From contig JADFXV010000023.1 in the NCBI GenBank assembly GCA_015233395.1, forward strand, positions 1 through 39,856: DNA of 39,856 nt, written 5' to 3'. A model generated the notes under the pieces. That model was given only the letters and a program-made list of their open reading frames with translations, made no database searches and was not told where the DNA came from. A program made the translations under genes and the position numbers. Every line of letters starts with the position of its first letter. Positions within the stretch are counted from its first letter, which is position 1. Positions 7,415 through 39,856 of the stretch are shown here, piece after piece. Origin of the DNA: Desulfovibrionaceae bacterium. GTDB lineage: Bacteria > Desulfobacterota > Desulfovibrionia > Desulfovibrionales > Desulfovibrionaceae.

Positions 7415-7449
7415 ACCTTCTCCGGGACGGCCGACATGCTTGGCGCCGC

Positions 7450-7478: not shown

Positions 7479-7518
7479 GAGCTCCGGGAATACTTGCGAA
7501 AAGATAAAGACTTCCGCT

Positions 7519-9861: not shown

Positions 9862-9940
9862 CGGCCCGTCCTTGTTCGCACTTGGCCCGGTATGGCCCCG
9901 CAAAAAGCCGGGCCGGGCGGCGGGCGCCGCCGGAAGCATA

Positions 9941-10008: not shown

Positions 10009-10016
10009 CCGGAAAT

Positions 10017-10045
10017 TTGACAAGGCTCGGGCGCGCGCCTAGGAA
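10017..10045 (+). promoter_or_regulatory. possible promoter for the receiver gene
   Basis: A perfect TTGACA (10017-10022) is followed after 17 bases by TAGGAA (10040-10045), which matches the -10 consensus at three of six positions. A transcript from here would begin near 10052, which favours the ATG at 10099 over the upstream ATGs at 10048 and 10057. Sequence match only. Confidence 0.35.
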
Positions 10046-10098
10046 GGATGCGGGCAATGGGGCCTCTTGGCCGTTGCAACGAATTTCGGGCGGGCGCC

Positions 10099-11552: not shown

Positions 11553-11601
11553 GATCCCGCTCCCTCATGTTCCGGGCTTGTTGAGGACCTCCGTCATCAG
11601 C

Positions 11602-12009: not shown

Positions 12010-12071
12010 TTGTTCCCCTATTTACAAAACATCACTAGCCACGGCGCGAGCGAACATCGCTCCTTGGCCAC

Positions 12072-12089
12072 GGAAACATGTACGTTTCC
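12072..12089. repeat. short inverted repeat upstream of the hemerythrin gene
   Basis: GGAAAC (12072-12077) and GTTTCC (12084-12089) are exact inverted arms around a 6-base centre, in the 143-bp space between the cyclase stop and the hemerythrin start. It could be an operator or a weak attenuator. No T-run follows on either strand. Confidence 0.3.
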
Positions 12090-12152
12090 CGCAAGGCAAG
12101 CGGCTCGGCTCAAGCGGTCATCTGCATGCTAATCCTCTAAATTCTTTTGCGG

Positions 12153-13367: not shown

Positions 13368-13368
13368 A

Positions 13369-17766: not shown

Positions 17767-18120
17767 CGCTCCCTCCGTCTCGTTCGCCGCGCCCGGCGAA
17801 TGTCCGCGTTGTTTCGATGCAAACAAAAGAATGCGCCTCGCCGGTCCCGCGGCGCCGGACGCCGGAGGCGATACAGGGCCATTACCGGATTGTCCGCCCA
17901 AGGAAAAGGGGCGCCCCGCCCTTGCCGGCCGGCAATGCCCGCGTTTTCTCCGCAGCGGCCGCAGCCGGACGCCGGCCGTTTGGACTTGGCGGTCCAGGCC
18001 GCCCGGGGCTTGGGATCAATCGCCCTCAACTCTCCCGCCGCGCTCCGATTTGAAAGACCGCTTTCCTTCGCCCGCCTCCCCTGCTATCGTTTTCAAAATC
18101 GTTTTCCGGCAGGTTGCCTT
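17767..18120. other. 354-bp divergent intergenic region between two hybrid kinases
   Basis: No gene is supported; the open frames here are N-terminal over-extensions of the two flanking kinases. It holds a perfect 14-bp palindrome, TTGCCGGCCGGCAA, at 17922-17935, and a direct repeat of ATCGTTTTC at 18086-18094 and 18098-18106, just upstream of the 18121 gene. Promoters for both genes must lie here, but I see no strong -35/-10 pair. Confidence 0.5.
17922..17935. repeat. perfect 14-bp palindrome
   Basis: TTGCCGGCCGGCAA is fully self-complementary and lies 156 bases upstream of the start of the 13369-17766 kinase and 186 bases upstream of the 18121 gene. It could be an operator for a dimeric regulator. 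In such GC-rich sequence a chance palindrome is also possible. Confidence 0.25.
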
Positions 18121-19870: not shown

Positions 19871-22834
19871 ATGAAAAAATCCGCCCAGGAAAAAGACGCG
19901 CCCGCCAAGGCCGACCGTGCGGCGCCCCGCCGTCTTGAAGGCTTTCCCGTCATCGGCATCGGCGCCTCGGCCGGAGGCCTGGAGGCGCTCGAACTCTTCC
20001 TCAAGAGCGTTCCCGAAGGCAGCGGCCTGGCCTTCGTCGTGGTCCAGCACCTGGACCCGACCCAGAAAGGAGTCATGCCCGAACTGCTGCAACGAATGAC
20101 CACGATGCCCGTGGCCCAGGTCAAGGACCGGGCGCAGGTCGAACCGGACCATGTCTACGTGATTCCGCCGAACAAGAACATCAGCATGAGCCACGGCAGA
20201 TTGCACCTGTTCGCGCCGGTCGAGGCCAGGGGCCTGCGCCTGCCGATCGATTTCTTCTTCCGTTCCCTCGCCGACGATCAGCAGCAATTCGCCGTCGGCG
20301 TCATCCTCTCGGGCATGGGATCCGACGGCATGCTCGGGCTCCGGGCCATCAAGGAAAAAGGCGGCGCGGGCTTCGCGCAGGACCCGGCCACGGCGAAATT
20401 CGACGGCATGCCGCGCAGTTCGGTCGAGGCCGGGCTGGCCGACGTGGTCGCTCCGGCAGGCCAACTGCCCGAGAAGATCCTGGCCTTCCTCAAGCACCCC
20501 CGCCTTCCGGCCGAGGCGAACGTGATCCTGGACACCAAGGCCCAAAGCTCCCTGGAAAAGGTGTTCATCCTGCTTCGGACCAAGACCGGCCAGGATTTCT
20601 CCCTGTATAAAAAAAGCACCATCTACCGCCGCATCGAGCGGCGCATGGGGCTGCACCGGATCGACAAGATCGCCACCTACGTGCGCTACCTGCAGGAAAC
20701 CCCCCAGGAAGCGGAGCTTCTGTTCAGGGAACTGCTCATCGGCGTGACCCAATTCTTCCGCGATCCCGCGACCTGGGAGCAACTCAAGACGCAGTGCCTC
20801 CCGCTTCTCTTTGCGGCCTACCCCGCGGGCGGGACGCTCCGGGCCTGGACGGCCGGCTGCTCCACCGGCGAAGAGGCGTACACCCTGGCCATGGTCTTCA
20901 GGGAGGCGCTCGACCGGCTTACGCCGTCCGCGCACTATTCCCTGCAGATTTTCGCCACCGACCTGGATGCGGACGCCATCGCCAAGGCGCGAAGCGGCCG
21001 GTACCCGCCCAACATCGCCGCCGACGTTTCAGCCGAGCGCCTGAACCGGTTCTTCATGCAGGAAGAGGACGGCTACCGGGTCTGCAAGGAAATCCGCGAC
21101 TGCGTGGTCTTCGCTCCCCAGAACGTCATCATGGAGCCGCCCTTCACCAAGCTCGACATCCTGATCTGCCGCAACCTGCTGATCTATCTCGAGCCGGCGC
21201 TGCAAAAAAAGCTCTTTCCGCTTTTCCATTACGCCTTGAAACCGGACGGCATCCTGTTTTTGGGCGGCTCCGAGACCATCGGGGCATTCACCGATCTGTT
21301 CGCCCCGGCGGGCGGCAAAACCCGCCTCTACCGGCGGCTGGACGCCGGCAAGCGGACCGAGCGGCTCGAATTCTCCTCGGCGCTCGGCATCGCCGCGGCG
21401 CGGGCGCCAGGCGGCGGCGACGAACGCGGCAACGCCGCGATCCCGGGCCTGAGCCTGCAAGCGATGATGGACCAGACCCTGCTGCAGCACTATTGCCCGG
21501 CGGCGGTTTTGGCCACCAGGGAAGGCGACTTGCTCTACATCAGCGGGCGCACGGGCAAATATCTCGAACCGGCGGCCGGCAAGGCCAATCTGAACGTCTT
21601 CGCGATGGCCCGCGAAGGCCTGCGCTCCGAACTCCCCGGCGCGTTCCAGGCAGCCCTGCTCCAGGACGGCCCGGTCAACCTGACCGGCGTGCGCGTGGGC
21701 GTGAACGGCAAGACGCAGATGGTCGACGTGGCCGTCAGGGCGCTTGGGCGGTTCGCTTCCCAGGAAAACGTCGTCCTGGTCGTCTTCAAGGAGGCAACCG
21801 CGCTCGCCGAGGACAAACACTCCAAGGAAACGTCACCGGCCAAGGCCGGCCGGCATGAAATCGCCAAGCTGGAAAAGGAACTGCAAGCCGCCCGCGAGGA
21901 AATCCAACTCTCCCGCGAAGAAATGCACGCCTCCCAGGAAGAGCTCAAATCGACCAATGAGGAACTCCAGTCCACCAACGAGGAGCTCCAGTCCACCAAC
22001 GAGGAGCTCATGACTTCCAAGGAAGAGCTCCAATCCATGAACGAGGAGTTGCAGACCGTCAACATCGAGATGCAATCAAAGCTGGACGAACTGTCGCGCT
22101 CCAACAACGATTTGAAAAACCTGCTCAACAGCACCGACATCGCCACCCTGTTCCTCGACGACGCCCTCAACGTGCGACGCTTCACCCCCCAGACCGCGAA
22201 GATCATCAAGCTCATCGCCGGCGACGTGGGCCGGCCGATCACCGACATCACCACCGAGCTGGACTATCCGGAAATGGTTTCCGACGCGCAAAAGGTGCTG
22301 CGGACCCTGGTTTTCTCCGAAAAGCCGATCGCCACCCACGGCGGCCGCTGGTTTCTCGTGCGCATCATGCCCTACCGCACCATCGACAACCGCATCGACG
22401 GCCTGGTCGTGACCTTCGCGGACATCAGCGCGGCCAAGCAACTCGAAGAGTCGCTGCGCCAAAGCGAGCGGCACATGCTCGATCTCATCGCGGACATGCC
22501 CGGCGCCTTCGCGCTGCTTGAGCCGGTCACAAGCGGCGCGGGCGGGCTCGCCGACTGCCGGTTCGTCTTCGTCAACAAGGCCTTCGAGCGCCTCGCCGGC
22601 GCGGGCGAGGGCGAGGTCCTGGGACGGACCGTGCTGGAGAGATTTCCCGAGGCCGACAAGTCCCTGCTGGGCGCCCTGGAGCGGACGCTTGCGACCGGGA
22701 AAGAACAAAGATTCACCTCGCGCTTTGATCCCGCGGGCAAGCCGGTCTTGCTGCGAAGCTACCGCCCCGGCGACAACCCGAACCGCCTTTGCCTGCTCGG
22801 CGACGTGCGGGGACACGATGAGCAAACAGGCTGA
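19871..22834 (+). CDS. CheB-CheR fusion with coiled coil and PAS domains
   Basis: A 987-residue soluble protein. The N-terminal CheB-type methylesterase domain (~24-205) keeps the catalytic triad Ser33 (GASAGG), His60 (QHLDP) and Asp152 (GSDGM), without the usual receiver. A CheR-type methyltransferase follows (~220-480), with the SAM-binding motif AWTAGCSTGEEAYTLAM (~325-341) and LLIGVTQFFRD upstream. Next come a PAS-like segment (~500-650), a long coiled coil (~650-750) built partly from 7-residue repeats, and two PAS domains (~750-855 and ~860-980). It ends without the histidine kinase domain often found in longer members. Such fusions methylate and demethylate receptor-type glutamates, but no chemoreceptor gene is in the window. 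The start is fixed by AAGGAG 11 bases upstream. It probably shares a transcript with the kinase at 18121. Confidence 0.93.
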   Translation: MKKSAQEKDAPAKADRAAPRRLEGFPVIGIGASAGGLEALELFLKSVPEGSGLAFVVVQHLDPTQKGVMPELLQRMTTMPVAQVKDRAQVEPDHVYVIPPNKNISMSHGRLHLFAPVEARGLRLPIDFFFRSLADDQQQFAVGVILSGMGSDGMLGLRAIKEKGGAGFAQDPATAKFDGMPRSSVEAGLADVVAPAGQLPEKILAFLKHPRLPAEANVILDTKAQSSLEKVFILLRTKTGQDFSLYKKSTIYRRIERRMGLHRIDKIATYVRYLQETPQEAELLFRELLIGVTQFFRDPATWEQLKTQCLPLLFAAYPAGGTLRAWTAGCSTGEEAYTLAMVFREALDRLTPSAHYSLQIFATDLDADAIAKARSGRYPPNIAADVSAERLNRFFMQEEDGYRVCKEIRDCVVFAPQNVIMEPPFTKLDILICRNLLIYLEPALQKKLFPLFHYALKPDGILFLGGSETIGAFTDLFAPAGGKTRLYRRLDAGKRTERLEFSSALGIAAARAPGGGDERGNAAIPGLSLQAMMDQTLLQHYCPAAVLATREGDLLYISGRTGKYLEPAAGKANLNVFAMAREGLRSELPGAFQAALLQDGPVNLTGVRVGVNGKTQMVDVAVRALGRFASQENVVLVVFKEATALAEDKHSKETSPAKAGRHEIAKLEKELQAAREEIQLSREEMHASQEELKSTNEELQSTNEELQSTNEELMTSKEELQSMNEELQTVNIEMQSKLDELSRSNNDLKNLLNSTDIATLFLDDALNVRRFTPQTAKIIKLIAGDVGRPITDITTELDYPEMVSDAQKVLRTLVFSEKPIATHGGRWFLVRIMPYRTIDNRIDGLVVTFADISAAKQLEESLRQSERHMLDLIADMPGAFALLEPVTSGAGGLADCRFVFVNKAFERLAGAGEGEVLGRTVLERFPEADKSLLGALERTLATGKEQRFTSRFDPAGKPVLLRSYRPGDNPNRLCLLGDVRGHDEQTG
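21938..22063 (+). repeat. six tandem 21-bp units inside the CheB-CheR coiled coil
   Basis: Six consecutive 21-base units begin at 21938, 21959, 21980, 22001, 22022 and 22043, each encoding a heptad of the form EELxSTN or close to it (residues ~690-731). Units two and three are nearly identical in DNA. The array lengthens the coiled coil without shifting the frame and is prone to copy-number change by slippage. Confidence 0.8.
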
Positions 22835-28371: not shown

Positions 28372-28403
28372 GCTGAAAAAATGCGCGCCGGCCGGGTTTC
28401 AGC
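28372..28403 (-). terminator. possible terminator overlapping the hemerythrin-domain stop
   Basis: GCTGAAA (28372-28378) and TTTCAGC (28397-28403) are exact inverted arms around a GC-rich centre. On the minus strand the 3' arm contains a T6 run (28376-28381). The element spans the stop codon of the gene at 28399. It is suggestive only. Confidence 0.4.
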
Positions 28404-28944
28404 GGGAAGCGGCCCCTTCGCGGCTCTCTGCCACGGCAGCGTACTTTTCCCGGAAAACACGCGTCTCGACGGCGTCGAAGGCGAGAAGCATCGCCTCCAT
28501 CTCGTCTTTGGCGAAATGGCGCATGACGGGATGGAAGAAGCGCTTGTCCTCTTTTTCGATGTGGGTCCGGTAAAATCCGGACAGCTCCCGCATCAGGCGG
28601 ACCAGGGGCGCGCCCCGGGAAGGATCGCCGGGAACGGCCCGGCCGTTGGCGTCGTGGATGGCCAGGACGAGGGCGCGGCCGCGAACGTGCTCCGCGACGA
28701 GTTCCCCGAGTATGCGGCGTTCTTCGTCCGAAAGCGGTTTTTGAGCCAAGGCGGCGAACAGGATCTCCTCTTCCTTGCCGTGGTGGCAGCGGTCGGCGTA
28801 ATAGCGGAAAAAGTCCACCGCCTCGTCGATCAAGCGGCTGTCCGGGCTTGCTCCGGCCTCGATGCGCCCGGCCTCGGCCTCCATCAGGACGATCAGGCGT
28901 TCGATGAGGCGGTGTTCGTGCATGAGCGGTCCGATCGGTTGCAT
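28399..28944 (-). CDS. hemerythrin HHE-domain protein
   Basis: A 181-residue cytoplasmic protein of the hemerythrin/HHE family. Likely di-iron ligands are in LMHEHRLIE (His9, His11), DRCHHGKEEEILF (His54/55, Glu58), EHVRGR (His86), THIEKED (His128) and FFHPVM (His138). The spacing is that of the longer HHE proteins rather than of the classical hemerythrin at 11602. AGGAGG stands 6 bases before the ATG at 28944, a near-ideal ribosome binding site; the frame's extension to 29028 is unlike protein. Such proteins sense or scavenge oxygen or NO, or take part in iron-sulfur repair (family knowledge). Its neighbours are a TPR protein downstream and a sensor kinase upstream on the same strand. Confidence 0.9.
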   Translation of the reverse strand: MQPIGPLMHEHRLIERLIVLMEAEAGRIEAGASPDSRLIDEAVDFFRYYADRCHHGKEEEILFAALAQKPLSDEERRILGELVAEHVRGRALVLAIHDANGRAVPGDPSRGAPLVRLMRELSGFYRTHIEKEDKRFFHPVMRHFAKDEMEAMLLAFDAVETRVFREKYAAVAESREGAASR

Positions 28945-29037
28945 GCGTATCCTCCTTGCGCTCCCGGTGTTTCCAGCGGGAGCCGGGCATGATTCCCGGT
29001 CAGTACACCCGGTTGCGATGCGCCGCAATCCTTGGCG

Positions 29038-29085: not shown

Positions 29086-30531
29086 TCAGATCGCCTGGCC
29101 GCCCGGCTCCTGGCTGAGTTCGGCCTTGGGCAAAAACACCGAAAAACAGGCGCCCTGGCCCGGCGCGCTGTCCACCTCGATGCGCCCGCCGTGGCGTTTG
29201 ACGATGGAATACGTGACCGAAAGGCCAAGGCCGGTGCCCTTGCCGACCTCCTTGGTGGTGAAAAAGGGCTCGAAGATGTGCGAGAGATTTTCCGGCGATA
29301 TGCCCGGGCCCAAGTCGCGCACGCTCAGGCGGACAAAATCGCCCGCATCCGCGCCCGCGACAGTGATGACGCCCCCGGGCGGGCTGACGTGCACGGCGTT
29401 CTGCATCAGATTCAAAAACACCTGCTGCAACAGGCGCAGGTTGCCCGCCACCGCGTCCAGGCCGTGCGGGACGTTCACGTCGATGGTCAGCCCGGAAATC
29501 ATGATCTGGTTGCGCAGCAGGGCCAGCGAACTTTGCACCACCGTCTCCGGGGAGAGCGGGCTGAATTTGGCTTTCTCCGTGCGCGAAAAATCGAGCAGGT
29601 TGCGCACGATCTCGCCGGCGCGTTCGGCCTGGGACAGGATGTCCCGGGTGATGTCCCGGCCCTCTTCGCCGAGCTCGTCGCCGTGGACTTCCAGCACGGT
29701 TTCGGCCGAGAGCATGATGTTGTTCAGGGGATTGTTGAGTTCGTGGGCGATTCCGGCGGTCAGGGTGCCAAGCGCCGCGATCTTGCGGGCCTGAAGCAGG
29801 TCCTCCTGGTTGGCCGTCAATTCCAGCGCCATGCGGTTTAAGGCGTCGAGCAGCCCGGCCACCTCCTCGATGTGGTGCCCCCCGGCCGCCACCGGGCTGA
29901 AATCGCCCTTGGCCACCCGGGCGGTGATCTGGCGGATCAGGCCGAGAGGTTTGAGCAGGCTCGCGGCGATGACCTTGATGAGTACGGCCATGAGCACCAA
30001 AAAAACCCCCACGTAGGCGAAAGGCAAAAGCGACACCTCGAAGATGGTCTTGTGGATTTGCGCGCGCTTGGTGCGGATCAGCTCTTGGGCCGTGTCCACC
30101 AGGAGTTTGCCCGTGGCCCGGATGCTTTCTCCGGTCGCGTCCCGGCCGTCGCCCAGGCCGATGAAATCCTGGCGGTAGAGGACCAGGGCGTCGCGCAGGG
30201 CGGCGAGCCCTCCGGCGCCGGCCACGAGGACGACGTCGGGGCTCAACTCCACCAGCACCTCGTCGGCCTGGTCCAGATAGGAGAGGCCCTCTCGCAGATT
30301 CTCCTCCCCGCCGTAGATGAGCTGGTTTTTTTCGTAGCGCCGCGCTTCGAGGATAAAATGGCGCAGATCGTCGTAGCGTTCGCTCAGATTCAGCCGGCCG
30401 CGCACGGTCGCAAGCGTCCAGACGTTGAGCGCGGTCAGGCCGCAGGCCACCAGAAAGGCCACCAGGAACAGAGTGAAAATCTTGCCCTTGATCGAGTTGA
30501 AGAAGATCTTGAGCCGGAAAGAATCGGTCAC
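29086..30531 (-). CDS. membrane sensor histidine kinase with HAMP domain
   Basis: A 481-residue kinase. I chose the GTG at 30531 because AGGAGG lies 7 bases upstream; an in-frame GTG at 30558 has no such site. Membrane segment 1 is at ~19-40, followed by a periplasmic helical sensor (~45-165), membrane segment 2 (~169-190), HAMP (~191-245), HisKA with His263 in AHELNNPLNN, and HATPase with N378, DLGPGIS (406-412) and GTGLGL (432-437). It is of the NtrB/ZraS-like class, without a PAS domain or receiver. It is divergent from the transporter/PEP-synthase-like operon and appears to share a promoter region with it. The only stand-alone receiver on that side, at 35131, is the likely partner. Confidence 0.93.
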   Translation of the reverse strand: MTDSFRLKIFFNSIKGKIFTLFLVAFLVACGLTALNVWTLATVRGRLNLSERYDDLRHFILEARRYEKNQLIYGGEENLREGLSYLDQADEVLVELSPDVVLVAGAGGLAALRDALVLYRQDFIGLGDGRDATGESIRATGKLLVDTAQELIRTKRAQIHKTIFEVSLLPFAYVGVFLVLMAVLIKVIAASLLKPLGLIRQITARVAKGDFSPVAAGGHHIEEVAGLLDALNRMALELTANQEDLLQARKIAALGTLTAGIAHELNNPLNNIMLSAETVLEVHGDELGEEGRDITRDILSQAERAGEIVRNLLDFSRTEKAKFSPLSPETVVQSSLALLRNQIMISGLTIDVNVPHGLDAVAGNLRLLQQVFLNLMQNAVHVSPPGGVITVAGADAGDFVRLSVRDLGPGISPENLSHIFEPFFTTKEVGKGTGLGLSVTYSIVKRHGGRIEVDSAPGQGACFSVFLPKAELSQEPGGQAI

Positions 30532-30640
30532 ATCCGCTCCTCCTTGGGCGCCTGTCACGACAGAGTCCGGAAGGCGCGACCCGGCGCCCCGGCGAAAAGC
30601 GAAATCTGTTCCCGGAACGCTCCGCTGCCGGCGGCAACCG

Positions 30641-30669
30641 TTGCATTATACGACATGTTCCAATATGAT
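30641..30669 (+). promoter_or_regulatory. sigma70-type promoter toward the transporter/PEP-synthase-like operon
   Basis: TTGCAT (30641-30646) and TATGAT (30664-30669) are 17 bases apart. Both boxes match the consensus well (four and five of six). Transcription would start near 30676, giving a leader of about 180 bases before the ATG at 30859. The boxes overlap those of a minus-strand promoter. Confidence 0.55.
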
Positions 30670-30673
30670 ACAA
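30645..30673 (-). promoter_or_regulatory. sigma70-type promoter toward the HAMP kinase gene
   Basis: On the minus strand, TTGTAT (30673-30668) and a perfect TATAAT (30650-30645) are 17 bases apart. Transcription would start near 30638, about 107 bases before the GTG at 30531. Its -10 box overlaps the -35 box of the plus-strand promoter and the reverse, so only one polymerase can bind at a time. Confidence 0.55.
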
Positions 30674-30858
30674 GACGCCGGGGCGAATCGCGCCGGACCG
30701 TAACGGCCGCGATCCTCCCCGGCCGTTCTTTTGCGATGTGATTTGCAAAACTATTTCAGAGTCTTGTCCAATTTCCCGCGCCGGATTCCGGGCTTTTTCA
30801 AGCCGGGCCGGGCCGCGTGAAACAACGGAACCACGTAACAGCGCACAAAGGAAGGACC

Positions 30859-31806
30859 ATGAGCATACCCATTGAGCTCTACCTGCCCATCGCGGGCAAC
30901 AGCGTGAACATCGCCGCCGTGTTCGGCCTGGGCGGGGCGGTGGGCCTGCTTTCGGGCATCTTCGGCGTGGGCGGCGGCTTTCTGATGACCCCGCTGCTCA
31001 TCATGATGGGCATTCCGCCCACCGTGGCCGCGGCCTCGGACTCCAACCAGATCGTCGGCGCGTCCACCTCCGGCACCCTGGCCCACCTGCGCCTGGGCAA
31101 CGTGGACGTCAAGATGGGCGTCCTTTTGCTGGTCGGCGGCGTGCTCGGCGGCACGGTGGGGGTCGAGATCATCAAGATCCTGCGCCAGATGGGCAACGCG
31201 GACTTCCTGATCAACATCACCTACGTTTTGATGCTCGGGCTGGTGGGCGGCTACATGTTCGTGGAAAGCCTGCAATCCATGAAAAAGGCCAAGGCCGAGG
31301 CCAAGGCCCCGAGTACGCAGGAAAAACACGTCAAATCGAGCGCCTTCGGCCGGTTTTCGGCCAGCCTGCCCTGGCAGATGGAATTTAAGCGCTCCGGCGT
31401 GCGCATGTCGCCGCTTCTGCCGCTCTTCCTCGGCGGACTGGTGGGCGTTTTGTCGGCCATCATGGGCGTCGGCGGCGGCTTCATCATGGTCCCGGTGATG
31501 GTCTACCTCCTGCGCATGCCCATGCACGTGGTGGTGGGCACGAGCCTGTTCCAGATTCTCTTCACCTGCATCAACGTCACGGTGATGCAGTCGATTTTCA
31601 ACCACACCGTGGACTTCGTCCTGGCCCTGATCCTGTTGATCGGCTCGGCGCTCGGCGCCCAGATCGGCGCCAAGATCGGCAAGAAGCTGCACGGCGATCA
31701 GCTCAAGATCCTCCTGGCCACGCTGGTCCTGGTGGTGATGTTCAAGATACTCTACGAACTGCTGGCCACGCCGAACGTGCTGCTGGCCTATGTGGGAGGC
31801 CACTAG
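30859..31806 (+). CDS. TauE/SafE (TSUP) family membrane transporter
   Basis: A 315-residue inner-membrane protein made of two homologous halves, each with the family glycine motif (LLSGIFGVGGGFLMTPLL ~30-47 and LSAIMGVGGGFIMVPVMV ~198-215), separated by a charged cytoplasmic loop (~140-180). About eight membrane segments are visible. The family exports or imports small anions such as sulfite, sulfoacetate or other organosulfur and carboxylate compounds. The ATG at 30859 has GGAAGG three bases upstream; an earlier ATG-less extension to 30817 is rejected. It is first in a long operon and followed with one base spacing by a TIGR02186-like gene, a partnership known from proteobacteria. The substrate is not determined by the sequence. 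Confidence 0.92.
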   Translation: MSIPIELYLPIAGNSVNIAAVFGLGGAVGLLSGIFGVGGGFLMTPLLIMMGIPPTVAAASDSNQIVGASTSGTLAHLRLGNVDVKMGVLLLVGGVLGGTVGVEIIKILRQMGNADFLINITYVLMLGLVGGYMFVESLQSMKKAKAEAKAPSTQEKHVKSSAFGRFSASLPWQMEFKRSGVRMSPLLPLFLGGLVGVLSAIMGVGGGFIMVPVMVYLLRMPMHVVVGTSLFQILFTCINVTVMQSIFNHTVDFVLALILLIGSALGAQIGAKIGKKLHGDQLKILLATLVLVVMFKILYELLATPNVLLAYVGGH

Positions 31807-31807
31807 C

Positions 31808-32554
31808 ATGAAACGAGCCGCACTGTTTATCGTCCTGCTCCTCGCCTTGCCCGCCTCGGCCCTGGCCGAGGACGTCATGGCCCAGGTCAGCCCGGAGGCC
31901 ATCGACATCGGCGCCCTGTACAACGGGACCTCGATCGCCGTGTCCGGCCTGGTTCCGGAAGGCTCCCAAGTGGCCTTGCGCTTCACCGGCGCGCCCGAAG
32001 AAGTGCGCATGAAGCAAAAGGGCAAGTTCTTGGGACTGCTCTGGATGAACATGAACACCCTGCATTTCAGCGGCGTGCCCAAGGTCTGCCTGGTGGAATC
32101 GACCGCGCCGCTTGGCGAAATGGGTGAGGCCGGCGGCAAGCTGAGCCTGACCGGCATGGCGCAGTCCATCGGCATCGAGCCAGCCGGGGCCGACAGGGGC
32201 ATGCTCCTGCCCGAACTGCTCAAGCTCAAGCGCGGCGAAGGGCTGTACCGCGAAAGCTCGGGGGCGATCGTCCTCGGGGCCGCCCGGGGCGCGGCGCGCG
32301 AGTTTTCCGCCAACGTGTCCATCCCCTCGCGCCTGTCGCCGGGCAGCTACGTGGTCGAGATCTTCGCCGTCAAGGACGGCCGGGTCGTGGCCCAGGGCGT
32401 CAAGAACATCGAGGCCAAACTGGTGGGAATACCTGCGCAGTTGGCCGATCTGGCCTTCAACCACGGGGCGTTGTACGGCATCTTCGCCTCGATCATCGCG
32501 ATTTTGGCCGGCCTGGCCATCGGCATCGTCTTCCAGAGCAAGGAGGCGCATTAG
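31808..32554 (+). CDS. TIGR02186-like exported protein with C-terminal membrane anchor
   Basis: A 248-residue protein with a signal peptide (MKRAALFIVLLLALPASALA, cleavage after ALA), a periplasmic domain beginning with VSPEAIDIGALYNGTSIAVSG, a typical opening of the TIGR02186/Alph_Pro_TM family, and one C-terminal membrane helix (~219-240) followed by a short positive tail. It would face the periplasm. GGGAGG lies 8 bases before the ATG, inside the end of the transporter gene. Members are commonly encoded next to TauE/SafE transporters, as here; a role as accessory or substrate-presenting subunit is inferred. The function of the family has not been established to my knowledge. Confidence 0.85.
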   Translation: MKRAALFIVLLLALPASALAEDVMAQVSPEAIDIGALYNGTSIAVSGLVPEGSQVALRFTGAPEEVRMKQKGKFLGLLWMNMNTLHFSGVPKVCLVESTAPLGEMGEAGGKLSLTGMAQSIGIEPAGADRGMLLPELLKLKRGEGLYRESSGAIVLGAARGAAREFSANVSIPSRLSPGSYVVEIFAVKDGRVVAQGVKNIEAKLVGIPAQLADLAFNHGALYGIFASIIAILAGLAIGIVFQSKEAH

Positions 32555-32560
32555 CCGATC

Positions 32561-35134
32561 ATGGAACTGCCGAGCCTCACGGATTTCTTCGCCCGGTGGC
32601 GCGCCAAGCCGCCCGTGCCCTTTTCCGTGCTCTTCAAGAAATTCAAGAGCATCCTTGAGCGCAACAACGCGATTTTGGGGCTGATCGGCGATATGGGCGA
32701 CAAGCTCGGCGGCGACTACATCTTCGATCGCCAGTACATCCTTGATTCCTGCGAAAAACTCGGCGACCAAGTCTTCAAGCTGGTTTCGGACTTAAGCCTC
32801 CTGTGTCAGCGCAAGAACGTCGGCCTGTTCACCGCCTTCGAGCGCATCTCGCACCAGATCCGCGAGGAATTGGCCGGCCGCCGGGTTCTCACCCGCACCG
32901 ACCACATCCTGCCGCTGTGCGATCTGACCCACGACCTGGCCGACGAGGGCGGCAACAAGATGGCCAACGTCGGCGACATCCGCAACATCCTGGGCTTCAC
33001 CGTGCCCGACGGCTTCGTCGTCACCGCCGGCGCCTATTTCGAAGCCATGGAGCGCGCCGGGCTGCGCGCGCGCGCAGGCGCGCTCTGCGACCGGTTCGAG
33101 CGCGGCGACTCGGCCAATTGGGCCGGTTTGGCGGAAGCGGCGGCCCAGCTCCAAAAAGACATCCTGGCCATGCCCCTGCCCAAGGGCCTGGCGAAAAGCG
33201 TGAAGCTCGCGGCCAAACGCCTGGCGGCCGAGGGCGGCCAGTTTTTGGCGGTGCGCTCCAGCGCCTGGGGCGAGGACGGCGAATCGAGCTTCGCGGGCAT
33301 GTACGAGAGCGTGCTCGGGGTGGCGGCGGAAAACATCCTGACCGCCTACCGCACGGTGCTGGCCAGCCTTTTTTGCGAGCAGGCCCTGCGCTACCGCCTG
33401 CATCGCGGCCTGTCCAAAGAAGAACCAGCCATGGCCGTGGGCGTCATGCGCATGGTCGACGCCCGGGTCAGCGGCGGGCTCTACACCTACGTGCCCCTGC
33501 TCGAGCACGACCAGCCCATGGTGGTCAGCGCCGCCTGGGGCCTGGGCAAGCCCATCGTGGAAGGCACGGCCGAAACCGACACCTTTTTGCTCGGCCGCGA
33601 ACCGCCCCACGAGCTTTTGTCCTCGGAAATCGGCCTCAAAACCACCCGGCTCGCGCGCGACGCCGCCGGCGGCACCCGCACCGAAGACGTCCCGGCGGAC
33701 CTGGCCGCTTCCCCGTGCCTGGATAAGGACCAGCTCGTCTTGCTTGCGAAAACGGCCATGAGCCTGGAGCGCTTCTTCAAGCGGCCGCTGGACGTGGAAT
33801 GGGCCTTCACCTCCGAGGGCGAACTGATCGTCCTGCAAGCCCGCCCGCTGTCGATCAAACCCAAAATCTGCACTCCGGGCCCGGACGTGGCCGAGGCCAC
33901 CAAGGACGTCCCGGTCCTGATCTCGGGCAAAGGCGTCCCGGCCATGGGAGGCGTGTCGGCCGGCCCGGTCCACATCGTCGTCGAGGGCGCGGACCTGGCG
34001 GATTTTCCCTACGGCGCCATCCTGGTCACCCACCATTCCTCGCCGCGTTTCGCGCGGATCATGCCCAAATGCCGGGGCATCATCACCGAAATGGGCTCGG
34101 CCACCGGGCACATGGCCACCATCGCCCGGGAACTGCGCGTGCCCACCCTGGTGGGTGTGAGCGACGCCACGCGGATCCTGCGCGAAGGCCAGGAGATCAC
34201 CCTCGACGCCGACCACATCGTGATCTACGAGGGCGTGGTCGAGGCCCTATGCCGCTACGAACTGGGCAAGGAGGACGTGTTCGAGGAATCCTGGGAATAC
34301 CGGACGCTCAAGCGCGTGCTGCGGCACATCAGCCCGCTCACCCTGCTCGATCCGGACGCCGACTCCTTTTCTCCCGAAAAATGCAAGACCTTCCACGACA
34401 TCGCCAGGTACGTCCACCAACGCGCCGTGGACAAGCTCATCAACCTCTCGGAGGAGCACCGGGAAATCAAGGAAAGCGCGCCGCACCGGCTGGTCACCAA
34501 GCTGCCGCTCGGGCTGACGGTCATCGACGTGGAGGGCGGGCTGCGCCGCGGGGCGCCGGGCGAGATACGCGAAGAGGACGTCCTGTGCCGGCCGCTGCGC
34601 GCCCTGCTCGAAGGCGTGAACGCGAGCGGCATGTGGGAAACCTGCGCCGTGGCCGTGGACATGGGCAGTTTCATGTCGAGCGTCACCCGGACCATGACCG
34701 CCAGCCAGTCCCATCCGACGACCCTGGGCCGCAATCTGGCGGTCATTTCCGAAGAATACTTGAATCTGCACCTGCGCCTGGGGTATCATTTCACCGTGGT
34801 GGACGCCTACCTGGGCGAATCCGTGAACGACAACGCCGTCTTGTTCCGGTTCATGGGCGGAGTGACCGACTTCACCCGCCGCTCCCGCCGGGCCGGGCTG
34901 ATCGCCGCCATCCTGGAGCGCTACGATTTCGTGGTGAAAATAACCGGGGACATGGTCACGGGCCGGGCCAAAAAACACCCGGAGGCGGACATGCTCGACA
35001 AAATGTACATGCTCGGCGGTCTGATCGGCTACACCCGCCAGCTCGACGCCCGGCTCGGCAGCGACGACGACGGCCGGCGTCATTTCGAGGAGTTCGTGCA
35101 ACGCATCAACGCCTTGAGGGAGGCCAGACAATGA
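32561..35134 (+). CDS. PEP/pyruvate-binding (PEP-synthase-like) protein, paralogue 1
   Basis: An 857-residue soluble protein. It has an N-terminal helical domain (~20-135; FKSILERNNAILGLIGDMGD), then a PPDK_N/ATP-grasp domain (~140-430) with VRSSAWGEDGESSFAGMYES (231-250, Arg232), SGGLYTYVP (304-312) and DVEWAF...LQARPL (411-429). A phosphohistidine swivel domain (~455-560) follows with His517 in MGSATGHMATIARE. The last ~280 residues (from ~580) form a domain I cannot name. PEP synthase and PPDK move phosphate from ATP through the swivel His to pyruvate; the C-terminal PEP/pyruvate-binding TIM barrel is absent here, so the acceptor must be different or supplied by another protein. The stop overlaps the receiver gene as ATGA. 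Confidence 0.88.
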   Translation: MELPSLTDFFARWRAKPPVPFSVLFKKFKSILERNNAILGLIGDMGDKLGGDYIFDRQYILDSCEKLGDQVFKLVSDLSLLCQRKNVGLFTAFERISHQIREELAGRRVLTRTDHILPLCDLTHDLADEGGNKMANVGDIRNILGFTVPDGFVVTAGAYFEAMERAGLRARAGALCDRFERGDSANWAGLAEAAAQLQKDILAMPLPKGLAKSVKLAAKRLAAEGGQFLAVRSSAWGEDGESSFAGMYESVLGVAAENILTAYRTVLASLFCEQALRYRLHRGLSKEEPAMAVGVMRMVDARVSGGLYTYVPLLEHDQPMVVSAAWGLGKPIVEGTAETDTFLLGREPPHELLSSEIGLKTTRLARDAAGGTRTEDVPADLAASPCLDKDQLVLLAKTAMSLERFFKRPLDVEWAFTSEGELIVLQARPLSIKPKICTPGPDVAEATKDVPVLISGKGVPAMGGVSAGPVHIVVEGADLADFPYGAILVTHHSSPRFARIMPKCRGIITEMGSATGHMATIARELRVPTLVGVSDATRILREGQEITLDADHIVIYEGVVEALCRYELGKEDVFEESWEYRTLKRVLRHISPLTLLDPDADSFSPEKCKTFHDIARYVHQRAVDKLINLSEEHREIKESAPHRLVTKLPLGLTVIDVEGGLRRGAPGEIREEDVLCRPLRALLEGVNASGMWETCAVAVDMGSFMSSVTRTMTASQSHPTTLGRNLAVISEEYLNLHLRLGYHFTVVDAYLGESVNDNAVLFRFMGGVTDFTRRSRRAGLIAAILERYDFVVKITGDMVTGRAKKHPEADMLDKMYMLGGLIGYTRQLDARLGSDDDGRRHFEEFVQRINALREARQ

Positions 35135-35550
35135 CAAACGAACCGATTGCGCCGGACGCCCCGGCGGGCAAGGCCAGGACCAGCATCCTGGTGCTCGACG
35201 ACGAAGCCATCGTCTGCAAGCGCCTCAAGCCGTTTTTCCAGAAAGCGGGCTACGAGGTCGAGACCTTCGGCGATTCGGGCGAAGCCCTCGCCCGCGTGCG
35301 GGAACGCCGTTTCGACGTGGTCATCACCGACCTCAAAATGGAAGGCTTAGACGGCCTGGCCTTTTTGGGCAAGGTCAAGGAACTGCACAAGGATACGGAC
35401 GTCATCGTCATCACCGGTTTCGCCACCCTGGAAACCTCGCGCGAATCGTTCCGCAAGGGGGTCTTCGATTTCGTGGCCAAACCCTTCAAGCTGGCCGAGA
35501 TCCTGGACGTGGTCCGGCGCGTCGAAAAGGAGCGGGGGCTTACCCCCTAG
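35131..35550 (+). CDS. single-domain response regulator
   Basis: A 139-residue receiver with Asp23-Asp24 (VLDDE), phospho-acceptor Asp67 in ITDLKMEG, the switch Thr in VITGFAT (~95) and Lys117 in VAKPF. Met-Pro after the phospho-Asp is replaced by Met-Glu. There is no output domain. The ATG at 35131 overlaps the stop of PEP-synthase-like paralogue 1 as ATGA, with GGGAGG 7 bases upstream, and the next paralogue begins 7 bases after its stop. It is therefore made together with the two enzymes-like proteins and may regulate them by direct binding. The divergent HAMP kinase is the likely phosphodonor (inference). Confidence 0.92.
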   Translation: MTNEPIAPDAPAGKARTSILVLDDEAIVCKRLKPFFQKAGYEVETFGDSGEALARVRERRFDVVITDLKMEGLDGLAFLGKVKELHKDTDVIVITGFATLETSRESFRKGVFDFVAKPFKLAEILDVVRRVEKERGLTP

Positions 35551-35557
35551 GCCGCCC

Positions 35558-37891
35558 ATGAAGGCCGCGCGGGACGATCCGCCGGACGGCGGCATGGGAC
35601 CGGGCGGCGCGAAGTTTCTCTTCCGCTCGTTTCAGCGCATCCTCACGCTCAACACCGCCGTCCTGGAGCGCATGGCCCAGATGGACCGGGCGCTCGGCGG
35701 CGAATACGTCTTCGACAAGGCGTTTCTGGAGAGCGCCGTGCGCGACGTGTGCTCCCTGACCCACCGCGTGGCCTACCAGCTCAACGGCATGGCCGGCGAA
35801 GGCTACGTCGCGCTCTACGACGCCTATCTCGCGGTCAAGGACGCCCTGGAAGACGTGCTCTCCGGCGGCATGGGGCCTTTGTCCGCGCGCCGAACCCTCG
35901 CCTTCGACGAAATCGGCTGGGAAATGGAGCCCCTGGCCGGCCTGGCCAGCGTCGGCCTGGCGGTGCTCGGCCGCAAGATGCGCCTGCCCGCTCCGGACGG
36001 CCTGGCGGTCACGGTCACGGGCATGCGCGCTCTGGCCGGCCAGGACCGCGGCGCCGCCAAAGCCGCCCTGGCCGAAATCAAGGACGCGGTCGCCGCCCTC
36101 TATTTCCGCCTGGGCGGCGCGCGCACTCTTGAGCTGAGCCTGATCGCCGCCGGGACGGACAAGCCGGGGCAAATTTTGGCGTCGAGCCTGGCGGACTCGC
36201 CCGAGCAAGCCGCCGCCGCCGTCCAGGCGTTCGCCGCGAGCTCCCCGGCAGACGCACGCCTGGCCGTGTGCCTGCGCCCGAAAATCAAAGGCCCGGTCGA
36301 GGGCTCGCTTGCGACCCTGGCCCAGAGCCCGGGCCTGCCCCCGGCCATGCTGGTCCATGCGTCCCCCCCGGAAGGTCCGCCCACGGGCAGCCGCTTTTTC
36401 ATTTCGCGCATCGCCCCGTACGAACTCGTGAGCGACGGGCGCGACGGCCCCTGGCCGGTGCCGCGCACGGCGGCCCGTTTGGCCGAACTGGGCCTGGCCG
36501 CCGAACGCGCGCTTGGCGGGCCGTGCCTGCTCTCCTTCGCGCTCGATCCGGGCGGCTCGCCGTGGCTTACCGGCGTGGAGCCGCTCGTCTCGCCGTTTAC
36601 GGACTCGGGCGAGGACGACCCAGGCCAGCCCGGCGAGCCGGAACAGGCGCTGCTCGCCGGCGGACAGATCGCCTGCGCAGGCGTGGCCGCCGGGCCGGTG
36701 GTCCTGCTCGGCGCAGACACCGCGCCCGCTTCGGTGCCCCCGGGCTCGGTCGGGGTGGCCAAAACCTCCGTGCCCGCGCTCGCGACCATCGTGCCGCGCC
36801 TTGCGGCGCTGCTCACCGAAATCGGCACGGCGGCGAGCCATCTGGCCACCGTGGCCCGGGAAAACCGCGTTCCGGCCGTATTCGGCCTCAAGGGAGCGAC
36901 GTCCCTTGCGCCCGGAACCATGGTCACCGTGGACGCGGACGAACCGGCCGTGTACCCGGGGGTGTCCGCTTCGAGACTGCGCCAGGCGGCCAGCCAGGAA
37001 AACCAGCTGCGCGACGAACCCGAATACCAGACTCTGCGCCGCCTTTTGCGCCACGTCCGGCCTCTGAACCTGATCGATCCGCAGGCGAGCGATTTTACTC
37101 CCGAGCGTTGCCGCACCTGCCACGACATCATCCATTTCGCCCACGAAAAGGCCGTGGAGCTGCTCTTGTCCATCGACGCGGCCAAGGGCGCCGGGCGCAA
37201 CGGGGCCGGTTCTCCCCGCCGCCTGCGCGAAGACGCCCCGTTCGTCCTGAGCATCCTCGACATGGGCGGCGGGCTGGCCGCGCCTTCCGGCGCTTGCGGG
37301 AAAAACCGGGACGTCGGCCTGGCCGAGGTGACCAGCCGGCCCCTGAAGGCCTTTCTGGACGGGCTTCTGCTCCCGGCGGCCCGCCGCCAGGAACCGGGCC
37401 GGCTCTCGCTCGGGGACGTATTTGGCGGCCTTGGCCGCACCAACGCGGCCATGTCCGGGCCGGCCGGCCTGGCCGGGTTGAACCTGGCGCTGGCGGCCTC
37501 GGACTACGCCAACATCACCATGCGCCTGGGGTATCACTTCAGCGTGGTGGACGCCGTGGTCAGCGACCGGCCCGAACACACCTTCATCTATTTCCGCTTC
37601 GCCGGAGGCTTCGCGGACGGCGACCGCCGCGCCAGGCGCGCGAAGCTGATCCTGGCCATCCTCGACCGGCTGGGCTTTTCCGCCACGCTCAAGGGGGATC
37701 TGGTGGTGGGCAAACGCAAGCTCATGGAGGCAGGCGAAGCCCTGACGGTCCTGCGCATCCTCGGAGCCCTCTCGGCCTACACCCGCCAGCTCGACATCGA
37801 ACTCGGCAGCGACGCCGCGGCCGAGCGCCTGGCCGGGGAATTTCTCGCCGCAAGCGGCCTTGACGGCCAAAGCCCGCAGGCGGCCTCATGA
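35558..37891 (+). CDS. PEP-synthase-like paralogue 2 with degenerate ATP-binding domain
   Basis: A 777-residue protein that keeps the N-terminal helical domain (FQRILTLNTAVLERMAQMD ~24-42), the swivel domain with His428 (EIGTAASHLATVARE) and the unassigned C-terminal domain (~489-777; EYQTLRRLLRHVRPLNLIDP, YHFSVVDAVV). The PPDK_N part is eroded: the VRSSA...ED...SFAG motif is missing and the region ~160-340 is shorter and Ala/Leu-rich, though a remnant of the LQARPL strand remains (WLTGVEPLV ~336-344). It probably cannot bind ATP as the first paralogue does but could still accept phosphate on His428. Its own stop overlaps the ATG of paralogue 3 as ATGA. The start is the first ATG after the receiver stop; no clear ribosome binding site is seen. 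Confidence 0.85.
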   Translation: MKAARDDPPDGGMGPGGAKFLFRSFQRILTLNTAVLERMAQMDRALGGEYVFDKAFLESAVRDVCSLTHRVAYQLNGMAGEGYVALYDAYLAVKDALEDVLSGGMGPLSARRTLAFDEIGWEMEPLAGLASVGLAVLGRKMRLPAPDGLAVTVTGMRALAGQDRGAAKAALAEIKDAVAALYFRLGGARTLELSLIAAGTDKPGQILASSLADSPEQAAAAVQAFAASSPADARLAVCLRPKIKGPVEGSLATLAQSPGLPPAMLVHASPPEGPPTGSRFFISRIAPYELVSDGRDGPWPVPRTAARLAELGLAAERALGGPCLLSFALDPGGSPWLTGVEPLVSPFTDSGEDDPGQPGEPEQALLAGGQIACAGVAAGPVVLLGADTAPASVPPGSVGVAKTSVPALATIVPRLAALLTEIGTAASHLATVARENRVPAVFGLKGATSLAPGTMVTVDADEPAVYPGVSASRLRQAASQENQLRDEPEYQTLRRLLRHVRPLNLIDPQASDFTPERCRTCHDIIHFAHEKAVELLLSIDAAKGAGRNGAGSPRRLREDAPFVLSILDMGGGLAAPSGACGKNRDVGLAEVTSRPLKAFLDGLLLPAARRQEPGRLSLGDVFGGLGRTNAAMSGPAGLAGLNLALAASDYANITMRLGYHFSVVDAVVSDRPEHTFIYFRFAGGFADGDRRARRAKLILAILDRLGFSATLKGDLVVGKRKLMEAGEALTVLRILGALSAYTRQLDIELGSDAAAERLAGEFLAASGLDGQSPQAAS

Positions 37892-39856
37892 CGCCCGTCT
37901 GGCGTTCCTGGATGTCCGCTCTGGCGGGTCTGTCCGGGCTTCTGGGCTCAAAAAGCCGTCGCCGCAAAAACGCCGCCCTGCTTGCGATCAAGGCCCGCTA
38001 TCACATCTTCCGCGTGCTTTTGACCTATAACGAGCGCGCCCTGGAAGCCCTGGCCGAACTCGACCGGCTGCTGCGCGAAAACGAAACCTCGCGGGTCGCG
38101 GCCACGGCCGCCGCCCTTTGCGAAACCGCGCTGGAAATGGCCGACGGCTTAAACCGCCTGACCGGCAACGGCCAGCCCGGCCTGTATCCCCTGATCGAAA
38201 GACTGCGCCGCGAACTGGAAGAGGCGCTCGCGCGCTACCGGACCACTCCGGCCGGCCTGTGGCTGCCGCTTGCGCAGATCACCCCGGACAAGCGGGAGCA
38301 GGCCGGAGGCAAGGCCGAACCGCTGGGCAGGCTCACGCGGGCCGGGCTGCCGGTCCCGGACGGCCTGGCCGTTACAAGCCTGGCCTGCCGGGAATATCTG
38401 CGCCAGGCCCATCTGGAGGACCGTCTGCGGTCGATCCTGCGCGCGGCGGGCGAAAAAGACGCGGATCTGGCCGCCCTGGCCGCCGCAGCCAAGGACATGA
38501 TCCTGGCTTCCTGCGCTTCCGAGGCCTTTGCGCTGGAACTGCGCGCCGCCTGGGACTTTCTCGCCCAGGGCCGGCCCCTGCGCATTTCCGTGCGCAGCAG
38601 CGCCGCCAGCGAAGACGGCCGCGAGCGTTCCTTTGCCGGACAGTTCGACAGCGTGCTCGGGGTGAACTCTCCGGACGCCTTCCTGCCGGCCTTCAAGACG
38701 GTCCTGGCCAGCGGCTTTTCGGAGCGGGCCCTGGCCTACCGGGCCGGGAGCGCGCCCGGCGAGGCGCTGGACATGGCCGTGCTCTGCCAGCGCATGGTCG
38801 AGGCCACGGCTGCGGGCGTGATGTTCACGGTGGATCCGATGCGCCCGGAGAGCGGGCGCATGCTCATCACCGCCGTGCCGGGGCTTGGCACCCAGGCGGT
38901 GTCCGGGCTCGCCCCGGCGGACGTCTACCGGCCCGGGCGCGGACTCGACGCGCTGGAGGCGGCCGGCTGCCCGTCCGAAATCGCGGAAAAGACCCTGCGC
39001 GAAGTGGCCGCGCCGGGCGGCGGGCTGCGGCTGGAAGAAGTGACCGGAGAGCAGCGCACGCTGCCGCTGCTTTCGCTGGCGGAAATCGAAACGCTGCGCG
39101 GCCTGGGATTGCGCATCGAGGCCCTGTCCGGCGAAGCGTGCGATATCGAATGGGCCAGGGACGCGTCCGGAGCGATGTGGATCCTCCAGGCTAGGCCGGC
39201 CCACTTGGCCAGACCGGCTAAATCGGCCAAACCGGTAAACGGGACGCATCGGGCCGATGCGGCGCCAGGCGGCGGCGTCGGCAAAACGCTTTTGGAGGGA
39301 GGCGCCGGGGCCTCCCCGGGCAAGGCCGCCGGACGCGTGGCGCTGGTCCGCTCCCGGGGGGAACTTGCGGCCGCCGTTCGCGAGGCGACCGGCGAGACGA
39401 CCGGCGAGACGGGTGAACCGGTGGCGCTCGTCCTGCATCAGAGCCTGGTCGAGGCCGCCTCGCTGGTTCCGCACGCGGCCGCGCTCCTGGTGGACTTGGG
39501 CAATCCCCTGGACCACCTCGCCTGCCTGGCCAGGGAACTGGACATCCCCATGATCACCGGCCTTGGCGCGGCCACGACCGCGCTTGCCCCGGGCCAGTGG
39601 GTGCTGGCGGACGCGGACCGGGGCCTGGTATTGGCCACGGACCCACGGCTGTGGCGCAACGCCGGTATATTCGACGGGACGGCAAACCTGCTGCGCGCGC
39701 GGTTCATCGTGGCCACGCCTTCCACGCTTAAGAATAATATTTTCCTTAAGAGCATTGCTTCAATCAGAGCCGACGGCATCCTGGCCCATGAGCGCGCTCA
39801 TGAGGGCGGAGCGGATGAATTGAACGCGTATTTGGCCGAGGCTGATGCCCTGATGG
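37888..39856 (+). CDS. PEP-synthase-like paralogue 3, 3' end outside window
   Basis: The frame opens at ATG 37888, overlapping the previous stop, and stays open to the right edge (656 codons). The N-terminal helical part (~25-125) differs from that of paralogues 1 and 2. The PPDK_N domain is intact in motif: SVRSSAASEDGRERSFAGQF (~234-253), GVMFTVDPM (~311-319), a GLGTQAVSG segment, and CDIEWARD...ILQARP (~413-432). The swivel domain carries His543 in LDHLACLARELDIP. A repetitive linker (39200-39240) rich in Lys/Pro/Ala joins the two. From about 39720 the codons become AT-rich. Whether the unassigned C-terminal domain of the first two follows is beyond the window. Confidence 0.85.
   Translation, partial: MTPVWRSWMSALAGLSGLLGSKSRRRKNAALLAIKARYHIFRVLLTYNERALEALAELDRLLRENETSRVAATAAALCETALEMADGLNRLTGNGQPGLYPLIERLRRELEEALARYRTTPAGLWLPLAQITPDKREQAGGKAEPLGRLTRAGLPVPDGLAVTSLACREYLRQAHLEDRLRSILRAAGEKDADLAALAAAAKDMILASCASEAFALELRAAWDFLAQGRPLRISVRSSAASEDGRERSFAGQFDSVLGVNSPDAFLPAFKTVLASGFSERALAYRAGSAPGEALDMAVLCQRMVEATAAGVMFTVDPMRPESGRMLITAVPGLGTQAVSGLAPADVYRPGRGLDALEAAGCPSEIAEKTLREVAAPGGGLRLEEVTGEQRTLPLLSLAEIETLRGLGLRIEALSGEACDIEWARDASGAMWILQARPAHLARPAKSAKPVNGTHRADAAPGGGVGKTLLEGGAGASPGKAAGRVALVRSRGELAAAVREATGETTGETGEPVALVLHQSLVEAASLVPHAAALLVDLGNPLDHLACLARELDIPMITGLGAATTALAPGQWVLADADRGLVLATDPRLWRNAGIFDGTANLLRARFIVATPSTLKNNIFLKSIASIRADGILAHERAHEGGADELNAYLAEADALM
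39199..39240 (+). repeat. short degenerate repeat in the paralogue-3 linker
   Basis: Near-identical 12-15 base units of the form CGGCCAAACCGG or close variants recur between 39199 and 39240, encoding the HLARPAKSAKPV linker. A second 12-base repeat (ACCGGCGAGACG twice) occurs at about 39389-39412. These look like slippage-expanded, flexible linkers that keep the frame. Confidence 0.45.

Follow-up and report, generated by a model that had tools for sequence, protein, structure and literature searches.

The window analysed here is the whole of contig JADFXV010000023.1 (39,856 bases) from a Desulfovibrionaceae bacterium, and its last 11 kb carry a gene module that is real, conserved and under-described. 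In it the gene of a membrane histidine kinase (HK) is divergent from a row of genes coding, in this order, for a TSUP (TauE/SafE) transporter, a PF09608 protein, a protein resembling phosphoenolpyruvate (PEP) synthase (P1), a stand-alone receiver and two further paralogues of P1 (P2 and P3). The set recurs in the same order in dozens of loci, beyond chance. We propose, at a little under even confidence, that the receiver and the dikinase-like proteins form a phosphotransfer unit by which the TSUP anion transporter is regulated. Domain scans recovered all the genes that had been named in an initial annotation of this DNA (kinase, TSUP transporter, PF09608 protein, three paralogues and receiver). 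The features of the locus are the following (aa, amino acids).

29086..30558, minus strand: membrane histidine kinase HK, with HAMP, HisKA and HATPase_c matches
29743..29745, minus strand: codon of His272, the HK phospho-acceptor predicted from sequence
30720..30734, plus strand: candidate weak sigma54 -24/-12 element with one mismatch; one such match is unsurprising by chance
30859..31806, plus strand: TSUP (TauE/SafE) transporter, 315 aa (PF01925, E=1.6e-49)
31808..32554, plus strand: PF09608/TIGR02186-like protein (PF09608, E=2e-41)
32561..35134, plus strand: P1, PEP-synthase-like, 857 aa (PF01326, E=6e-69; PF00391, E=7e-21)
34109..34111, plus strand: codon of the P1 swivel His517 (His in 43/43 P1 sequences)
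34244..35131, plus strand: P1 C-domain, 296 aa, without Pfam match and with a predicted model lacking a barrel
35131..35550, plus strand: stand-alone receiver, a single-domain response regulator (PF00072, E=3.5e-27)
35558..37891, plus strand: P2, paralogue with a degenerate ATP-grasp region, swivel and C-domain kept (PF00391 the sole domain detected)
36839..36841, plus strand: codon of the P2 swivel His428 (His in 20/20 P2 sequences)
37888..39856, plus strand: P3, paralogue in which ATP-grasp and swivel are both intact, 3' end missing (PPDK_N, E=3e-65; PF00391)
39514..39516, plus strand: codon of the P3 swivel His543 (His in 20/20 P3 sequences)

Gene order and its conservation

The plus-strand genes are all spaced by 8 bases or less, as had been annotated, but the statement that they mostly overlap by ATGA did not hold, since this is the case in only two of the five junctions (P1/receiver and P2/P3). 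The contig stops at 39856, inside P3, which is therefore incomplete; the open frame is 856-905 aa long in six relatives.

The co-occurrence check that the initial annotation had suggested showed that the genes stay together in relatives. Of the two outcomes that it had named as refuting, a scattering of the genes in relatives and a TIM barrel in the paralogues, neither was obtained. We found PF09608 in 61 out of 297 genomes of the class, the same 61 that give the best P1 matches, and in all of them the C-domain of P1 lies 1.6-2.0 kb downstream of PF09608 on the same strand. Over 297 genomes of the phylum PF09608 was present in 51, and the PF09608-P1 pair in 42 of these (42 of 59 hits). The receiver follows P1 directly in 48/48 evaluable loci. 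Nine duplicate records of one contig had been removed ahead of the counting, and for this last count seven of 55 rows were excluded, i.e., two with the contig ending in P1 (L017, L083), one at a contig edge (L031), two with TSUP/PF09608 missing from the contig (L059, L084) and two without P1 downstream of the PF09608 gene (L087, L090). Genes other than the homologues were called with a simple home-made caller. The nearest named relatives of P1 include records of Fundidesulfovibrio, Humidesulfovibrio, Solidesulfovibrio and Desulfocurvus.

What comes after the receiver varies. P2-P3 are found there in the group of the window and in others, two USP-like genes in many loci and a DUF599 gene in a few, so that the core is TSUP-PF09608-P1-receiver. 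The DUF599-type membrane protein gene replaces P2-P3 in L037, L042, L043 and L044 (assigned by Pfam in L037 and by similarity in the other three). In a Desulfobulbus metagenome-assembled genome (L016) the kinase, TSUP, PF09608, P1 and receiver genes are all on one strand, with none of the P2-P3, USP-like or DUF599 genes and no sigma54 regulator. The identities of this locus (65% for P1, 81% for TSUP) are high for the Desulfobulbus label, which could point to lateral transfer or to an error in binning. Some Desulfobacterota have TSUP-PF09608 pairs without P1 directly downstream (L072-L078, L087), part of them with receivers, kinases or sigma54-regulator-like genes nearby.

Conservation within the module is highest in the transporter (72-92% identity across 40 loci, median 78%); the medians of the receiver, the kinase and P1 are 68, 52 and 49%. 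A link to the TSUP "clade B" (DVU2958), considered from the accessible parts of PMC5840216 and PMC7531388, was dropped; in the genome examined for it (G035) the best TSUP match has an identity of only 32%. A homologue of HK was found in 39 non-duplicate module loci with 35-75% identity; the HAMP match of HK itself (24.3 bits) is slightly below Pfam's 25. The predicted phospho-acceptor of the receiver is Asp67, and the acid pair, the Asp, the Thr and the Lys are kept in 48/48 receivers. A back-translation pattern search of the genome with the receiver gave no match.

The PF09608 protein, the start of which (31808) was picked by alignment, scores 142.7 bits against a cut-off of 24.5 and has the TauE gene next to it; with TIGR02186 it reaches 55.8 bits, below the cut-off of 255.25. 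It has an N-terminal hydrophobic helix, a largely beta body and another hydrophobic helix at the C-terminus, and its top Foldseek rows are mainly beta-sandwich chains with low TM-score.

Many relatives also have a putative sigma54 layer. An exact TGGCN7TTGC was located 0.43-0.62 kb upstream of TSUP in 26/41 loci, compared to ca. 3.5 expected, and the window, counted among the 41, is without one. Neither is there space in it for the gene of ca. 141 aa that many relatives carry before TSUP (USP-like in the one tested), and the best match in this genome to the sigma54 regulator of L018 has 45% identity. Together with the mismatched site listed above, this makes it seem that the genome has lost the sigma54 layer, barring an assembly gap. 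As described in the accessible parts of three papers, nine operons of Desulfovibrio vulgaris that contain TSUP or PSE transporter genes are under sigma54 control (PMC4641369), and its USP-PSE-USP genes respond to DVU0539/DVU0946 (PMC3333781) and influence molybdate fitness (PMC10102598); no dikinase-like protein is mentioned there as part of these operons. The place beside the kinase where relatives have the sigma54 response regulator is occupied in the window by a hemerythrin-domain gene (28399-29028, minus strand).

The window also contains a densely packed two-component island (2276-17901 on the minus strand and 19871-22834 on the plus strand). Its products include kinase proteins that also contain receiver domains (967, 832, 353 and 1510 aa long; the longest combines two receivers with an Hpt domain), a receiver-cyclase protein (12153-13367) and a CheB-CheR-PAS protein.

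Domains and descent of the three paralogues

P1 has a helical-looking N-terminal region followed by the ATP-grasp domain (PPDK_N), the swivel domain and a C-domain without named family. PPDK_N was detected in P1 and P3 and, in the Pfam scan, not in P2; the swivel domain PF00391 was detected in all three. The PEP-binding barrel PF02896 was found neither in P1 and P2 nor in two full-length relatives of P3 (L010, L018), which bears out the annotated absence of a TIM barrel from the first two paralogues. The genome encodes a complete PEP synthase elsewhere (L001), in which the same test did detect the barrel and which scores 1166 bits with TIGR01418; P1 reaches 279.8 bits, below the cut-off of 739.75. 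The best PDB matches to P1 are PEP synthases and cover residues 98-565, and in a PHROGs search the match was confined to the swivel region. The N-terminal ca. 115 aa of P1 gave a single match, PF16073 (E=0.088, 12.8 bits), well under the cut-off of 22.8.

The local identities among P1, P2 and P3 are between 22 and 36%. The swivel histidine is nevertheless invariant, as the feature list indicates, and five ATP-grasp residues are retained in 43/43 P1, 20/20 P3 and 49/49 proteins outside these three groups. P2 is different and has lost its ATP site, 16 of 20 sequences having none of the five, three having one and one having two. We built a tree of the swivel and C-domain region with 134 sequences, from which the incomplete P3 of the window was excluded. 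All 20 P2 sequences form a cluster (0.99) near that of the 43 P1 sequences (0.98), each together with one outside paralogue, and the two are joined at 1.0. The 19 P3 sequences (0.41) are on a long separate branch adjoining proteins of the nitrate cluster described below (0.91), a placement that is possibly due to long-branch attraction. The closest relative of P2 outside the module, in L102, retains the ATP-grasp residues, so the loss probably occurred on the P2 line. In L102 this P2-like gene with intact ATP-grasp adjoins a P3-like gene (L102:4611 and L102:7096), on a different contig from the transporter module of that genome (L085), which carries USP genes instead.

The C-domain (ca. 290 aa) is located where a PEP synthase has its PEP-binding barrel. 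It has no Pfam match, and a search against PDB sequences gave no significant one, the single hit being an aldolase with E=0.062. Across 23 sequences of P1, P2 and P3 we counted 38 invariant columns, and several H, D, R and Y residues are fully or almost fully conserved; in wider sets several residues hold and some vary. A model predicted from the 23 sequences (pLDDT 73) gave no clear match to a solved fold and only partial structural matches, several of them ferredoxin-like, with a best Foldseek E of 0.03 and, in VIA, a best Z of 5.7 across 136 residues at 5.0 A, all Z being under 6. A diverged barrel was considered and rejected, as the predicted secondary structure is without repeated beta-alpha units. 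The C-domain is present in 234/297 genomes of the class and 108/297 of the phylum, frequently in multiple copies, and a search of plasmids gave no matches.

A proposed phosphotransfer unit and its alternatives

In the mechanism that we favour, the receiver would be phosphorylated by the membrane kinase, the usual although not the only type of donor, or by another donor. It would then bind P1, its co-translated partner, and switch the ATP-dependent phosphorylation of the P1 swivel histidine. The phospho-swivel would act via the C-domain on the TSUP transporter or on a regulator of it, and ion flow would be restricted to the active state of the unit. P2, unable to use ATP, could take phosphate from P1 or P3 or else scaffold the complex, while P3 would be a second ATP-using copy, both being specialised versions. 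The PF09608 protein may be the exoplasmic partner of the transporter. All transfers of phosphate in this scheme, like the effect on the transporter, are inferred. The multi-subunit phosphotransfer machine of the initial annotation survives as far as barrel-less swivel-histidine proteins tied to a receiver and a TSUP transporter in a conserved unit are concerned; of its three paralogues only P1 turned out to belong to the core.

This mechanism draws on published genetics of a related locus, the Desulfovibrio "nitrate cluster" (Dde_0597-0605 / DVU0251-0245; Korte et al. 2014, PMC4001038). According to the accessible part of that paper, its genes code for TauE, a hypothetical protein (DVU0250), a PtxB-like protein, a kinase, a receiver (360 bp), a PPDK-like protein and a phosphatase. 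Isolated D. vulgaris mutants with insertions in DVU0251 (TauE), DVU0250, DVU0247 (receiver) and DVU0246 (PPDK-like) grew equally with and without 100 mM nitrate, which inhibited the control and the DVU0245 mutant, and in D. alaskensis the pooled Dde_0597-0605 mutants given in Table 3 of the paper were highly fit in nitrate. The authors suggested a leaky thiosulfate transporter and cited unpublished work in which the mutants were mildly sick on thiosulfate. In two loci of our set with the nitrate-cluster layout (L176 and L180) the PPDK-like proteins, of 820 and 845 aa, align to P1 over the full length and carry the N-terminal region, ATP-grasp, swivel histidine and C-domain, the latter with 29-33% identity to that of P1 (L182 included). 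The module thus has a cousin for which genetic data exist, and in it the transporter, the receiver and the dikinase-like protein act alike and share one phenotype. In this layout TauE precedes the PPDK-like gene, whose mutant is therefore not explained by polarity on TauE.

Several observations weigh against this interpretation. The nitrate-cluster genes are paralogues and not orthologues of those in the module, DVU0246 is likened to P1 by layout and gene type, and its published length (2235 bp) is shorter than that of the homologues in L176 and L180 (PMC4001038). The results for DVU0245 and DVU0250 conflict between strains or assays, and the D. vulgaris kinase DVU0248 is listed as a pseudogene while the receiver mutant has a phenotype, which makes a kinase step unneeded there (PMC4001038). 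In the module loci the kinase adjoins a protein of the size of a sigma54 regulator in 36/40 cases (assigned by size, the domain having been tested in L018), a more obvious partner for it. Of the 51 phylum genomes with PF09608, nine gave no P1 next to it, one of them (G428) being a contig-end case. All three alphaproteobacterial plasmid regions viewed have a TauE gene directly followed by a TIGR02186 gene and neither dikinase-like gene nor receiver, indicating that the two can occur together with no dikinase present. Among the 40 P1-family loci outside the module, only 11 have the receiver as a direct neighbour in the same orientation. Finally, a small-molecule active site would likewise account for the conserved polar residues of the C-domain.

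This last point leads to a rival that is unlikely in our judgement but real, namely that P1-P3 are small-molecule dikinases. The C-domain would bind a compound, perhaps imported by TSUP, the swivel histidine would phosphorylate it to trap or activate it, and the receiver and kinase would regulate the process. The rival is to be taken seriously because RPH, PpsAB and HpeHI, which have ATP-grasp and swivel domains and no barrel, phosphorylate small molecules (PMC12167813, accessible part), and the fully or almost fully conserved H, D, R and Y residues of the C-domain speak for it too. However, in the nitrate cluster loss of the dikinase-like protein mimics loss of the transporter, with nitrate, an ion whose phosphorylation is unexpected. 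P2 retains its C-domain without an ATP site, and some C-domain residues vary in the wider sets. Besides, the homology-labelled maps, in which most other neighbours are unnamed, showed no catabolic enzyme gene that recurs throughout.

The phosphate could also flow in the opposite direction, from the swivel phospho-histidine to the Asp of the co-encoded receiver, the dikinase-like proteins being a phosphate source parallel to the HisKA kinase. We consider this improbable, and more so than small-molecule phosphorylation. The co-translation and constant pairing of P1 and receiver would fit, as would the stand-alone receivers associated with many P1 paralogues, the resemblance of P2 to a phosphotransfer protein without kinase site and the D. 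vulgaris cluster, where the kinase is a pseudogene and the receiver still matters (PMC4001038). On the other hand, a HisKA kinase is close by in most module loci and in 26/40 paralogue loci, so the receivers mostly have a donor. We also know of no precedent for a PEP-synthase-type swivel histidine feeding a receiver, which counts against this direction of flow. The clear PPDK_N and swivel domains of P1 and P3 and the PDB matches of P1 could suggest plain copies of PEP synthase or PPDK with incidental neighbours. On sequence grounds this is so improbable that we rejected it, given the missing barrel, a TIGR01418 score far below the cut-off, a complete PEP synthase elsewhere in the genome and a gene order maintained across the class and part of the phylum.

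The wider P1 family bears on the receiver-dikinase unit as well. Among 40 P1-family loci of the phylum outside the module, chosen down the best matches listed and omitting contig-end hits and loci already included, 25 had a stand-alone receiver (under 200 aa), 26 a kinase and 17 a TSUP transporter, compared to 0, 4 and 0 in 20 stretches taken at random from these genomes (517 kb of sequence against 263 kb). The Fisher values (8e-7 for receivers, 1e-3 for kinases and 2e-4 for TSUP) overstate independence, as a single genome or lineage contributed several of the paralogue loci. Raising the limit to 210 aa gave receiver counts of 25/40 against 1/20, the control L135 having a receiver protein of 205 aa, and including any receiver domain gave 27/40 against 3/20. 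The direction is clear, and the P1 family associates with two-component proteins and TSUP transporters. One paralogue locus (L107) contains a TSUP-PF09608 pair, and L089, L090 and L091 have two or more P1-family genes near receivers and kinases.

It is conceivable, although we hold it with less confidence than the reading of the single locus, that a large Desulfobacterota-wide family of ATP-grasp/swivel-histidine proteins acts as signalling phosphotransferases, controlled by receivers or donating to them, that gate TSUP anion transporters. If so, it would be a phosphohistidine route apart from the classical histidine kinases and the sugar phosphotransferase system, with P2 living on passed-on phosphate. 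Proteins of sulfate reducers that score as PEP synthase-like would be control devices for ion transport, and there would be a mechanism for the nitrate resistance of Desulfovibrio mutants, so far unexplained and of interest for the control of oil-field souring. A domain found in 234 of the 297 class genomes sampled would also receive a name, and single-domain response regulators a new type of target.

Comparison with known systems

With PEP synthase and PPDK the paralogues share the PPDK_N ATP-grasp followed by the swivel histidine domain. P1 differs in lacking the barrel and in having the N-terminal region of ca. 115 aa and the C-domain, and P2 in lacking the ATP site. The likeness to RPH, PpsAB and HpeHI is in the joining of PEP-synthase-type ATP-grasp and swivel domains to another substrate domain, in some cases as two proteins. 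In RPH, however, the histidine domain comes after the substrate domain, near the C-terminus (PMC12167813), a layout not matched by P1, where the histidine is internal (His517 of 857) and the C-domain follows. The split of the PpsAB/HpeHI type is not matched either, P1 and P3 each carrying ATP-grasp and swivel on one chain, and no receiver or TSUP partner is described for these enzymes in the accessible part of the paper (PMC12167813). The alphaproteobacterial TauE-TIGR02186 pairs have the same order of transporter and TIGR02186 gene and differ in the absence of dikinase-like gene and receiver.

In the D. vulgaris operon DVU0542-0545 (regulator DVU0539) a kinase and a sigma54 regulator are divergent from USP-transporter-USP genes, and relatives of the window are similar (PMC3333781, PMC10102598). 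The transporter there is of the PSE type and not TSUP, and in the accessible text of these papers neither a dikinase-like gene nor a stand-alone receiver is described.

In the open-licence PMC literature we found no paper treating the PF09608-P1-receiver set, and TauE, receiver and dikinase came together only in the accessible part of the nitrate cluster paper (PMC4001038). That cluster has a single dikinase-like gene, and PF09608 is not listed for it there. Its PtxB-like periplasmic protein (PF12974 in L176 and L180), hypothetical protein and DSP phosphatase are particular to it; L176 and L180 carry both the PtxB-like protein and the phosphatase, whereas neither was among the scanned genes, which are part of those in the window, the contig ending in P3. 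The TSUP of the nitrate layout in L176 and L180 is strongly diverged from that of the module (hidden Markov model E=1e-19 and 4e-21). What the two have in common is a TauE-type transporter, a membrane kinase, a stand-alone receiver and a P1-family or PPDK-like protein. The opinion of the initial annotation that no system of this composition had been described was therefore too strong and, with a cousin cluster already published, the module is not categorically new.

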